DNA from: Anaerolineaceae bacterium
GTDB lineage: Bacteria > Chloroflexota > Anaerolineae > Anaerolineales > Villigracilaceae
Length of the DNA: 44,742 nucleotides
NCBI GenBank assembly: GCA_009885945.1
Contig: VFJR01000076.1
Coordinates: 1-44,742, forward strand
Direction: 5' to 3'
This document shows, piece by piece, positions 39,658 to 44,670 of this stretch (positions within the stretch are counted from its first letter, which is position 1; each line of letters opens with the position of its first letter). A model generated the notes under the pieces. That model did no database searches. It saw nothing but the letters and a program-made list of their open reading frames with translations, and was not told the DNA's origin. Both the position numbers and the translations under genes were made by a program.

Positions 39658-39793
39658 GGGTTTCCTCCGAGGAATGATTTTTATAAAGACGTTATCCTCT
39701 TGCAATCTCTTACAATATAACATGGTGTAAAATACACATGTTCAACAAAAACGTCGCGACTGCGGCGTTCCCTTAACCCTAAAGGAGTACACC

Positions 39794-40222
39794 ATGTATC
39801 ACACAATTATTATCGTTGGCAATGTAGGTAAGGACCCAGAGATGCGTTACACCCCCTCGGGTCAGGCGGTCACCTCTTTTTCTGTGGCTACCAATCGGCA
39901 ATACACAGCAAGCAATGGGGAACAAGTGAAAGAAACCATTTGGTTCCGCGTTTCAACTTGGGGAAAAACAGCAGAAGTTTGCAACACTTATGTTAAAAAA
40001 GGCTCAAAAGTTTTAGTAGAAGGCCGCCTAACACCGGATAAAAACACCGGTGGTCCGCGCATTTGGACTAAACAAGATGGCACTGCCGGCTCATCCTTTG
40101 AAGTAACAGCATCTACGGTACGCTTTCTTTCTTCACGCGGTGAAGGAGATAGTGGTCCCGTTGCGGGTGGCGGCGGTATGGAACATGCCGAAATGCCCCC
40201 AGAAGACGAAATTCCTTTCTAA
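39794..40222 (+). CDS. ssb: single-stranded DNA-binding protein
   Basis: A 142-residue SSB. The OB-fold (residues 1-110) has MYHTIIIVGNVGKDPEMRYT, VTSFSVATNR, ETIWFRVSTWGKTAEVCNTYVKKGSKVLVEGRL and FEVTASTVRFL. A short Gly-rich linker leads to the acidic tip PPEDEIPF, used to dock DNA-repair and replication proteins. AAAGGAG precedes the ATG. It is the first gene of a five-gene operon with DUF3467, translin, a membrane protein and a DNPH1-like hydrolase. An inverted repeat at 39720-39741 overlaps the region where a promoter is expected. Confidence 0.95.
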   Translation: MYHTIIIVGNVGKDPEMRYTPSGQAVTSFSVATNRQYTASNGEQVKETIWFRVSTWGKTAEVCNTYVKKGSKVLVEGRLTPDKNTGGPRIWTKQDGTAGSSFEVTASTVRFLSSRGEGDSGPVAGGGGMEHAEMPPEDEIPF

Positions 40223-40251
40223 GCGTAGCATTGCGCTATTAGGATATTCGT

Positions 40252-40587
40252 ATGACTACTCCCACACCTACACCTAAAGCTCAAGGACTGATGCTGGAAG
40301 TTCCGGCAAACCTTGAAATTATTTACGCCAATCTTGCGCGCATTGCACATTCACCATCCGATATCGTCATGGATTTTGCACATTTACTGCCTGGCGAAGC
40401 CCGTGCAAAAGTGGGCGCGCGCATTGTAATGACTCCACTCAGCGCCAAACTTCTTATGCGCGCATTGCACGAGAATCTGGCGCGCTATGAAGCGGCATTT
40501 GGCGAGATCTCCATCCCCGCCAATAGCACACTGGCAGAGAATCTCTTCCGTCCCTTTCAGCCGCCGGAAGCGCCCAAAGAACCGTAA
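40252..40587 (+). CDS. DUF3467 family protein
   Basis: A 111-residue protein that fits DUF3467 over nearly its whole length: LEVPANLEIIYANLARIAHSPSDIVMDFAHLLPG, ARIVMTPLSAKLLMRALHENLARYEAAFGEI. The family is small, widespread and without known function. The gene lies 29 bases after ssb and its TAA overlaps the translin ATG by one base (TAATG), so coupled translation with translin is likely. The Pro-rich ends are probably flexible. Confidence 0.87.
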   Translation: MTTPTPTPKAQGLMLEVPANLEIIYANLARIAHSPSDIVMDFAHLLPGEARAKVGARIVMTPLSAKLLMRALHENLARYEAAFGEISIPANSTLAENLFRPFQPPEAPKEP

Positions 40588-41279
40588 TGCAAAAGTTGGA
40601 ACAGATCACCGAAGAAATACGAAAAAGTTTTGATGCGCGCACCATTGCGCGTGATCAGGCATTGGCACAGGCGCGGCAACTCACCCGCGCCTGTTCTCTT
40701 GCCATTCGGGCTGTTCACCGAGACGAAGAAAATGTAATGAACGAACACCTAGCCCAAGCGCGCACCCTCGCCGATAAACTGCGCGCCGACCTTGCGCAAT
40801 ACCCTGATCTTTTTTATGCAGGATACACACAAGACGCGCTTAAAGAATTTGTGGAAGCAAATATCACCTGCGCGCTGATACGAAATGAAGCGCTTCAGAC
40901 TCCCGAGAGCCTGCGCGTTGAACCATCAACTTTTCTCAACGGGCTGGCAGAGGTGGTCGGTGAACTGCGCCGCCGCACATTAGACATTCTCCGTCACGGC
41001 TATTCACAAGAGGCAGAACGCTTGCTGGGCGTGATGGACGAAATTTATTCTGTGCTGGTTACCATGGATTACCCTGATGCCATCACAAATGGATTAAGAA
41101 GACAAACTGATCTAGCGCGCAGTATCATTGAAAAAACACGCGGCGATATTACCTTTAGTTTGCGCGGCGAACATTTGGAGCAGGCGCTGGGAGAGGTAAT
41201 CCGCCGATTAAATGGCGATCAAGCCGAGGGTAAGGAAAGAGGCGTGGGTTCTATATCAGTTACGCAGGATGAAAAATAA
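40587..41279 (+). CDS. translin family protein
   Basis: A 230-residue helical protein. The match to translin (and TRAX) is clear in TFLNGLAEVVGELRRRTLDILRHG, LLGVMDEIYSVLVTMDYPDAITNGLRRQTDLARSIIEKTRGDITFSLRGEHLEQAL, which carries the core helices and the C-terminal basic surface. Eukaryotic translin forms rings that bind single-stranded DNA or RNA; its TRAX partner provides RNase activity, and archaeal relatives have been shown to be RNases or binders. The acidic residues E and D in the GEL and MDEIY helices could be active-site residues; this was not checked. Position behind ssb and DUF3467 and before a nucleotide hydrolase suggests a nucleic-acid processing role (inference). Confidence 0.88.
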   Translation: MQKLEQITEEIRKSFDARTIARDQALAQARQLTRACSLAIRAVHRDEENVMNEHLAQARTLADKLRADLAQYPDLFYAGYTQDALKEFVEANITCALIRNEALQTPESLRVEPSTFLNGLAEVVGELRRRTLDILRHGYSQEAERLLGVMDEIYSVLVTMDYPDAITNGLRRQTDLARSIIEKTRGDITFSLRGEHLEQALGEVIRRLNGDQAEGKERGVGSISVTQDEK

Positions 41280-41282
41280 ATC

Positions 41283-41900
41283 ATGGCAAAATTCGTCAGT
41301 AAAAAATATCCGTTGGTTGTTTACACTCACATGATCAATCGCTGGTGGCCCTCCATTTTTTGGTTAGGCGCAGGCTTGCTGGCGTTGGCATGGATACAAA
41401 GCCGCTGGGGCGTTTACATAGAATCACAATGGTGGGGGCTGGTGTTATTTGGGGCCTTTGTAATATTAGTTAGTTTTATAATGTTGATCTTTCGCAAAGC
41501 CGCTTATGTGCGTTTGTATTCTGACCACCTGATGCTGGCAACTCCTTTTTTACGTTTGAATATTTCTTACAAACGAGTGCGCCGCGCAATCACAGCACAA
41601 ATGGCTGGCTTGTTTCCGACAAAGGGTATGTCTAACCGTACGCTGGACATGATGGAACCTTTGTTAAAACGAACAACGATCGTTGTAGAATTAAATGGAT
41701 TCCCCACCAGCCAGACCATGCTGCGTATGTTCCTTTCCCCTTATTTTTTTAAAGACACCACACCTCATTTTGTATTTTTGATCGATGATTGGATGGGCTT
41801 TAGCTCACAACTAGAAAGCCTGCGCAGCGGTGAAGGCATTAACAGCGCGGCGCAAAAGAAAACAGATCAATCCATCCTTTCTCGTTTGCCGCGCAAATGA
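41283..41900 (+). CDS. hypothetical membrane protein with two helices and a soluble C-terminal domain
   Basis: A 205-residue protein. Hydrophobic helices lie near residues 20-40 and 50-70, followed by a soluble part (75-205) starting AAYVRLYSDHLMLATPFLRLNISYKRVRRA, which resembles a PH-like membrane-protein domain such as bacterial PH domain DUF304 proteins. No firm family. It starts three bases after translin and overlaps the next gene by four bases, so it is part of the ssb operon and would place that operon at or near the membrane. Confidence 0.65.
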   Translation: MAKFVSKKYPLVVYTHMINRWWPSIFWLGAGLLALAWIQSRWGVYIESQWWGLVLFGAFVILVSFIMLIFRKAAYVRLYSDHLMLATPFLRLNISYKRVRRAITAQMAGLFPTKGMSNRTLDMMEPLLKRTTIVVELNGFPTSQTMLRMFLSPYFFKDTTPHFVFLIDDWMGFSSQLESLRSGEGINSAAQKKTDQSILSRLPRK

Positions 41901-42313
41901 ATATTTATTTTGCCTGTTCGATCACTGGGGGACGTGAATTTGAAACTGTGTATCAACAGCTTGTTTCTGCCTTGCTGGCAGATGGACACGAACTGCCTAC
42001 TGCGCATTTGGCTGAAAGCAATGTGATGCACATGGAGCAGATCATCGGCGCAGATGAAGTGTATGCACGTGATATACAATGGATCCGAGGCTGTGATGTG
42101 TTAATCGCTGAAGTGAGCGTGCCATCGCATGGCGTAGGTTATGAAATTGCATACGCGTTGAATCTTGGCAAACCTGTATTGTGTTTGTCTCAACAAGGCA
42201 GGAAAGTATCCAAGATGATTACGGGGAATCCTGATGAGAAGTTGAAAAAGTATGAATATGTTTCTGTAGGGGATGCAATCAAGATTTCGCGAGAATTTAT
42301 AGCAAATCATTAA
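41897..42313 (+). CDS. nucleoside 2-deoxyribosyltransferase-like / DNPH1-like nucleotide N-glycosidase
   Basis: A 138-residue enzyme. MNIYFACSITGGREFETVYQQLVSALLADGHELPT is the N-terminal nucleotide-binding region; ARDIQWIRGCDVLIAEVSVPSHGVGYEIAYALNLGKPVLCL holds the conserved Asp and Glu catalytic pair of the NDT/DNPH1 superfamily. The short size and the ACSITGGR start match DNPH1 (Rcl), which cuts 2'-deoxynucleoside 5'-phosphates into base and deoxyribose phosphate, a nucleotide pool cleaner. Last gene of the ssb operon, overlapping the membrane gene by four bases and followed by a strong terminator. Confidence 0.85.
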   Translation: MNIYFACSITGGREFETVYQQLVSALLADGHELPTAHLAESNVMHMEQIIGADEVYARDIQWIRGCDVLIAEVSVPSHGVGYEIAYALNLGKPVLCLSQQGRKVSKMITGNPDEKLKKYEYVSVGDAIKISREFIANH

Positions 42314-42337: not shown

Positions 42338-42372
42338 AAGCGCTTTGGCGTTTTCGCCAAAGCGCTTTTTTT
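42338..42372 (+). terminator. rho-independent terminator of the ssb operon
   Basis: Perfect 13-base arms (42338-42350 and 42355-42367) around a TTTT loop, followed by seven T on the plus strand. It also lies just past the stop of the minus-strand GT2 gene and may serve both. Confidence 0.93.
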
Positions 42373-43936: not shown

Positions 43937-44200
43937 ATGATAAGTAAAGTGGTAGTTTTTCATTGTCCTGAGTGCGAAAGTACAAATGTTGTCAAAAATG
44001 GCAAGAATAGCGCAGGCAGTCAACAGTTTTTATGCAAAGATTGTCATAAGTCGGCAGTTATGTATCCGCAAAACCAGCGTAGCGAGGAAGAGAAAAACCA
44101 GATTCTATCTATGTACCATGAACGGCCCAGTATGCGTGGAATAGCACGTCGGTTTCATATTTCTCGCAACACCTTGAAGAAAATGCTGAAAAAAAAGTGA
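43937..44200 (+). CDS. IS1-type InsA-like protein (zinc ribbon plus helix-turn-helix)
   Basis: An 87-residue DNA-binding protein. CPECESTNVVKNGKNSAGSQQFLCKDC holds the CxxC-CxxC zinc ribbon and MRGIARRFHISRNTLKKML is the helix-turn-helix that binds the element ends. In IS1, InsA alone represses transposition, and a -1 ribosomal frameshift joins it to InsB to give the transposase. Here the gene ends in eight A (44189-44196) just before its TGA, a fitting slip site. It overlaps the next frame by four bases. Confidence 0.9.
   Translation: MISKVVVFHCPECESTNVVKNGKNSAGSQQFLCKDCHKSAVMYPQNQRSEEEKNQILSMYHERPSMRGIARRFHISRNTLKKMLKKK
44189..44196 (+). promoter_or_regulatory. probable -1 programmed frameshift site of the IS1-type element
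   Basis: Eight A immediately before the InsA stop. A -1 slip here moves from ...AAA AAA AAG TGA into AAA GTG AGC and continues in the InsB frame, giving an InsAB' fusion as in IS1. Confidence 0.7.
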
Positions 44201-44670
44201 GCGAACAACCGACGGTCAAGGAAAGCTTGTTACCAGCGGAAAGCGAAGATGTGCTGGAATTGGATGAGGTTTGGTCATTTGTGTTCATCAAAACAGACAA
44301 ATATTGGTTGTGGACAGCTATTTGTCGGCGGACCCGCCAAATTGTGGCGTTTGTGATTGGCGATCGCAGCGCTGAAACATGCAGGCGTTTATGGCGGAAG
44401 ATCCCAAAACAATATCGTGCAAGTCATACTTTCAGTGATTTTTGGGATGCATACGAGAAAGTTTTCCCGAAAGAAACTCACCGAAGCGTTGGCAAGGAAA
44501 CAGGCGAGACCTGCCATATGGAACGCTGGAACTGCACACTTCGCCAGAAGCTGGCCCGATATGTCCGCAAGACATTATCCTTTTCCAAAGTCGAGTATAT
44601 GCATCATCTTGTGACTCGCTGGTTCATCGTTGAATACAACTTGGCGATTACTCACAATCATATGCTTTGA
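44197..44670 (+). CDS. IS1-type InsB-like transposase domain
   Basis: A 157-residue DDE transposase domain: LELDEVWSFVF supplies the first Asp, the central VIGDRSAETCRRLW and SDFWDAYEKVFP the second, and GETCHMERWNCTLRQKLARYVRKTLSFSK the Glu with the basic patch typical of IS1 InsB. A GTG at 44197 could start it alone, but translation by frameshift from insA is the more likely route. Full length, with no stop inside, so the element may still be active. Confidence 0.92.
   Translation: MSEQPTVKESLLPAESEDVLELDEVWSFVFIKTDKYWLWTAICRRTRQIVAFVIGDRSAETCRRLWRKIPKQYRASHTFSDFWDAYEKVFPKETHRSVGKETGETCHMERWNCTLRQKLARYVRKTLSFSKVEYMHHLVTRWFIVEYNLAITHNHML

Follow-up and report, generated by a model that had tools for sequence, protein, structure and literature searches.

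A conserved ssb-DUF3467-TRAX gene core in Anaerolineae as a candidate single-strand-processing module

Introduction

What brings an SSB, a DUF3467 protein and a member of the translin/TRAX superfamily together in one bacterial operon? The question is raised by a locus in the window, by which we mean the whole analysed stretch of 44,742 nucleotides (Anaerolineaceae bacterium, contig VFJR01000076.1). Chromosome breakpoints first brought translin and TRAX into connection with recombination; a link to RNA cleavage followed later. A direct role in genome stability has been argued only recently, for yeast translin (PMC9246224). An operon that joins TRAX to a dedicated SSB and, ancestrally, to RecN and a Cas4-like nuclease would allow this old question about repair to be tested in a simple system of single-copy genes.

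Results

The sequence-only reading had described five packed genes that end at one strong terminator, and the ORFs, their gaps and the terminator were all confirmed in the window (Table 1). The five ORFs occupy 39794-42313 on the + strand with gaps of 29, -1, 3 and -4 bases, the start codon of TRAX overlapping the stop codon of DUF3467 by one base, and the terminator (-24.9 kcal/mol, z -7.0) forms a hairpin on the opposite strand too. In an alignment of 27 leaders, whose selection by eye makes the covariation counts flattering, the leader hairpin of ssb had 92% of its cells paired and compensatory changes in seven of eight pairs, and none of 500 shuffles was equally good. A less biased test found the hairpin in 25 of 48 own-family leaders versus 2.5 in shuffles, while 18-38% of the regions 5' of other operon genes carry such a hairpin, and we regard it as a possible autoregulatory site. 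Upstream of ssb, no LexA-type box (GAACN4GTTC, CTGTN8ACAG) was present and a sigma-70 consensus scan gave no site better than chance; Rfam returned nothing at gathering score around the operon, its weak matches being terminators. Near the contig end, at 43937-44670, two overlapping ORFs of 87 and 157 aa resemble an IS1-type transposase pair, judged from sequence only.

Table 1. Features of the ssb operon and its flanks in the window
Feature	Position	Strand	Evidence
Leader hairpin of the ssb operon, 8-bp stem, directly 5' of the RBS	39750..39769	+	
RBS of ssb, AAGGAG	39782..39787	+	sequence
ssb, dedicated paralogue, 142 aa, acidic tail ending EDEIPF	39794..40222	+	PF00436, E 7e-32
DUF3467 protein, 111 aa	40252..40587	+	PF11950, E 2e-20
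Predicted TRAX-type nuclease, 230 aa	40587..41279	+	profile of 16 relatives vs AfTRAX 3zc1, E 7e-33
Membrane protein (ORF4), TM hairpin + PH-like domain, family-specific	41283..41900	+	AF2 model, weak Foldseek match
DNPH1/Rcl-like protein (ORF5), predicted 2'-deoxynucleoside 5'-phosphate N-hydrolase, family-specific	41897..42313	+	PDB 2khz, PF05014
Intrinsic terminator	42338..42367	+	13-bp stem, then U-run

Among 101 related genomes, TRAX was found in 94 and DUF3467 in 90, and wherever both were present (88/88 genomes), they lay within ~0.6 kb of each other on the same strand (coordinates compared by eye; two genomes have another small gap or gene in between). An ssb gene stood 5' of the pair in 30/30 own-family loci read and in 34/36 TRAX loci from the order's remaining families, with both exceptions at contig ends, and all three genes occurred together in 75 of 80 named loci, which are Chloroflexota records labelled mostly Anaerolineales or Anaerolineae and overlap with the order-wide set. 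The window genes upstream of the operon that were tested, HIBD and YitT, are not kept: YitT appears in no locus of the order, and a HIBD-like gene appears once, on the other strand. Because the core stays together across the order while these upstream genes do not, the arrangement is far beyond chance. The concern, raised when only the sequence had been read, that the gene order might be unique to this genome is thus answered by the neighbourhood check across Chloroflexota, in which the core proved to be order-wide. The operon is single-copy, lies outside variable islands and is found, with vertical-looking similarity, in almost every genome of the order. Beyond the order, in the same class, each pair also persists without the third gene: ssb-DUF3467 without TRAX at four loci, DUF3467-TRAX without ssb at three, and ssb-TRAX without DUF3467 at seven. 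No single-gene fusions among the three were found. At the level of the phylum, TRAX was present in 221 of 400 Chloroflexota genomes; in most of those sampled outside Anaerolineae, the loci read show TRAX adjoining neither ssb nor DUF3467, its neighbours including thiamine-synthesis and pyrophosphatase genes. Collectively, these counts support a conserved ssb-DUF3467-TRAX link in Chloroflexota.

The genome from which the window comes encodes three SSBs, and the operon ssb is separate from rpsF-ssb. In a tree of 46 sequences, the operon SSBs formed a clade of their own with 100/100 support, which holds neither canonical nor third SSBs. The acidic C-terminal tail of an SSB is the site through which partners are recruited, and both this tail and the OB-fold SSB domain are present in the window SSB. 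Operon SSB tails mostly end in EDDIPF or EDEIPF (DIPF-type), and these proteins therefore retain the partner-recruiting tail; the SSB encoded after the rpsF-like gene ends in EFPF. On this phylogeny, the operon ssb is an ancient dedicated paralogue. The third SSB of the genome (L075, 6781-7164, contig C196) is divergent and without a PF-ending tail, and across the order its relatives group in a separate clade.

The third gene had been read from the sequence as a prokaryotic translin; it is better placed as TRAX-type, on the catalytic side of the superfamily, its best matches being the archaeal AfTRAX and Neq131. The Pfam translin/TRAX model PF01997 matched the window protein with an E-value of 6e-5 and 23.4 bits, just below the cut-off of 25.9, and a PF01997 search of the genome returned no match because the protein scores just below this cut-off, not because it is absent. 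NCBIfam PRK14562.1-5 matched at E 2e-74, under the threshold that this model sets, and a direct comparison with AfTRAX (PDB 3zc1) gave E 3.5e-24. With the profile of 16 relatives, Neq131 (E 5e-15) and human TRAX (E 1.5e-4) were recovered besides AfTRAX; translin chains were absent from the matches at E <= 0.01. Homology to TRAX is beyond doubt given PRK14562 and the archaeal TRAX structures. The genome has one translin-superfamily gene, and a separate translin subunit, such as C3PO has, was found in it neither by the relatives search nor by the PF01997 search.

The catalytic residues of human TRAX are E126, E129, D193 and E197 (PMC9753400), which by alignment and spacing correspond to E87, E90, E122 and E126 of the window protein. 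All four are invariant in 192/192 loci, comprising 154/154 proteins with ssb or DUF3467 nearby and 38/38 TRAX proteins from other Chloroflexota loci, and the third acid, Asp in human TRAX, is Glu in 192/192, a conservative change. At this position the chains of 3zc1 and 3zc0 have D and A, respectively, a difference that looks like a catalytic mutant. Since the four acids are invariant, the window TRAX is likely an active homo-oligomeric nuclease, and, like archaeal TRAX, it probably forms a ring.

Neighbour clustering further revealed a same-strand continuation of the operon beyond TRAX in at least 10 other families of the order, with genes for a Cas4-like PD-(D/E)XK protein (PF01930, E 7e-11; PF12705, E 1e-7), an NAD kinase (PF20143, E 2e-33), a B-box product that is a zinc-finger membrane protein, and RecN (PF02463, E 9e-18). 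Longilinea arvoryzae (L245), a cultured Anaerolineae bacterium, is one organism in which the operon extends to RecN. In the genome of the window, recN is not 3' of TRAX; the Cas4-like, NAD kinase, B-box and RecN genes lie contiguously on another contig (C90; L256, 3364-7177). Read most simply, this points to a single long ancestral operon that came apart in the window's family, with the genes for the membrane protein and DNPH1 filling the place 3' of the core. A literature search found no description of a Chloroflexi RecN-Cas4 operon. In sister families, the Cas4-like nuclease itself looks split into two adjacent ORFs (L038, 5658-5897 and 5901-6419; L234, 1788-2300), of which the first (79 aa) has one Cas4-like Cys and the second (~170 aa) a PD-(D/E)XK motif and CxxC...C, each with a predicted membrane segment. 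An iron-sulphur cluster might be completed between the two proteins.

The last two genes of the window operon are confined to its family, with ORF4 in 28/30 own-family loci and ORF5 in about 20/30. ORF4 belongs to no Pfam family, and its AF2 model (pLDDT 90) matched PH domains weakly in Foldseek (best E 0.014). ORF5 matched PF05014 (E 2e-14) and DNPH1/Rcl (PDB 2khz, E 2.6e-22, residues 2-122). The DNPH1-like hydrolase was considered as part of the core pathway and rejected, as it is found only in the window's own family. We treat both genes as family-level additions that do not bear on the function of the core.

DUF3467 matched PF11950 with 73 bits against a gathering score of 25. Its AF2 model (pLDDT 82) has a beta-beta-beta-alpha fold of three strands and a long helix, with weak structural matches to COMM (Z 5.9), PC4 (5.2), MoSub1 (5.2) and Borrelia PUR (5.0), then PURA and MRP1/2; a Foldseek search of the PDB gave no E below 0.2, and viral structure libraries gave no significant match. 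Many of these matches are single-strand binders made of intertwined dimers, and at Z ~5, with COMM scoring as well, the modelled resemblance to them is only a lead. A C-terminal LA-xx-LF motif was present in 135 of 137 DUF3467 proteins from loci with ssb as well as TRAX, and in 6/6 from loci with operon-type ssb alone; at TRAX-only loci it was changed to FF in three and missing in one, and it was missing from DUF3467 proteins with neither ssb nor TRAX (a regular-expression match at L124 was spurious). This pattern, for which common ancestry is a confounder, suggests that LA-xx-LF may be a docking motif.

Outside the core, DUF3467 has varied neighbours. In one other Chloroflexota family it lies 5' of genes for a CT398-like Zn-ribbon protein and RNase HI (4/5 genomes), in another it overlaps RadC by one base, and at another Chloroflexota locus it stands between ribonucleotide reductase and a DNA methylase, whereas in Bacteroidota (Bacteroides, Parabacteroides) it is found near rpoC or before rpsL-rpsG-fusA. 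DUF3467 is also present in Staphylococcus phages, and viral contigs yielded one distant DUF3467 and none with a Bacteroides query; PHROGs gave nothing informative beyond one unnamed PHROG. On an Anoxybacillus plasmid (L248, 5983-6653), DUF3467 overlaps by one base a PBECR2-like gene (a sub-threshold match), the pair sitting just after a lexA-like gene; the genes 3' of DUF3467 in the Staphylococcus phage and in Anoxybacillus are unrelated to each other. In the literature searched, DUF3467 was named only in unrelated proteomics work, without a function, and the genomic context described here offers the first concrete functional leads for it.

Discussion

We consider it an evenly balanced prospect that the core is an Anaerolineae single-strand-processing module serving recombinational DNA repair. 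In such a module, the dedicated SSB would coat ssDNA at a break, gap or R-loop; DUF3467, probably a dimer and maybe single-strand-binding itself, would bridge SSB and TRAX; and TRAX, probably as a homo-oligomeric ring, would use a metal site of four acids to cut RNA, possibly ssDNA too, so that RecN- and RecA-type steps could proceed on a cleared strand. Genes for a Cas4-like nuclease and for RecN follow in that operon in most sister families. More tentatively, and with clear reservations, TRAX may assemble with the dedicated SSB and with DUF3467, which would be a new adaptor that binds single strands, into a complex that acts in recombinational repair or removes R-loops, in company with RecN and a Cas4-like nuclease that is split and anchored in the membrane. 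The sequence-only reading had proposed a joint ssDNA/RNA clean-up pathway; its conserved ssb-DUF3467-TRAX link stands, and we found no description of it, but nothing speaks for a part of the hydrolase or the membrane protein, and the wider operon with its Cas4-like nuclease and RecN favours DNA repair over general RNA/DNA clean-up. Several observations weigh against the repair reading: the NAD kinase shares the operon, and operon membership is not function; TRAX has unrelated neighbours in other classes, as DUF3467 does in Bacteroidota; and the catalytic Asp is replaced by Glu, the PC4/PUR match is weak and no known LexA-type box precedes ssb.

The main rival, which we regard as rather unlikely, takes TRAX for an RNA-turnover or tRNA-processing nuclease like eukaryotic C3PO and the ssb neighbourhood for an accident of operon assembly kept by co-regulation. 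Eukaryotic C3PO is indeed an RNase, and the NAD kinase of the long operon and the many Chloroflexota TRAX genes outside Anaerolineae that are not beside ssb or DUF3467 fit an accidental association. Archaeal TRAX, moreover, adjoins SepRS, a tRNA enzyme, in an ancestral operon (PMC5424206). An accident accounts poorly, however, for a core that many families keep despite changes in the gene order around it, for pairs that persist without the third gene, and for an SSB that is a dedicated paralogue. The ribosomal and rpoC neighbours of DUF3467 in Bacteroides and Parabacteroides would suit another explanation, in which DUF3467 acts as a factor linked to transcription or translation and the ssb operon is a growth-related housekeeping cluster without a joint biochemical step; this we find improbable, as the partners of DUF3467 in other Chloroflexota are RNase HI, RadC, a DNA methylase and ribonucleotide reductase, and the housekeeping ssb is encoded elsewhere. 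An anti-phage or stress-abortive system would explain why a nuclease and a nucleotide hydrolase occur together, why some phages carry DUF3467 and why it lies beside a PBECR2-like nuclease, below the Pfam cut-off, on the Anoxybacillus plasmid. It is nevertheless very improbable for a single-copy, nearly order-wide operon with vertical-looking similarity and no variable island, in which the sole PADLOC match was a weak one of the ORF5 hydrolase to a ThsB-type model. The repair reading accordingly remains the one that we prefer.

A strand-processing complex of this kind, if true, would mean that the translin/TRAX superfamily serves DNA repair in bacteria, and for prokaryotic TRAX, about which little is known, the operon provides a role in nucleic-acid repair that can be tested. 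TRAX in Chloroflexota is already known: Gupta et al. in 2012 reportedly catalogued the TRAX of Chloroflexi, the same proteins, in a study said to treat their sequence and phylogeny and not the ssb-DUF3467-RecN operon. In the literature searched, we found neither a description of the ssb-DUF3467-TRAX operon nor anything joining translin, SSB and ribonuclease in bacteria.

Among known systems, DNPH1/Rcl aligns with ORF5 over nearly its full length, and ORF5 occurs only in the window's family. The housekeeping SSB of rpsF-ssb shares with the operon SSB the OB-fold family and an acidic PF-ending tail, but the operon SSB has a tail that is mostly DIPF, not EFPF, and is encoded with DUF3467 and TRAX. 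Eukaryotic C3PO (translin-TRAX) has a TRAX-type catalytic subunit, and the positions of its four human catalytic residues are acidic here; unlike C3PO, the window TRAX has no translin partner gene found in its genome, and no RNAi pathway is implied. Closest are AfTRAX (Archaeoglobus fulgidus archaeal C3PO; PDB 3zc0/3zc1) and Neq131 (Nanoarchaeum equitans; 5jr9, 5jrc, 5jre), which belong to the same TRAX branch and share with the window protein a single translin-superfamily gene per genome and the four catalytic acidic positions, whereas the window TRAX is bacterial, lies in an operon with ssb and DUF3467, and has Glu as the first acid of the D-x3-E pair, as do all 192 loci.
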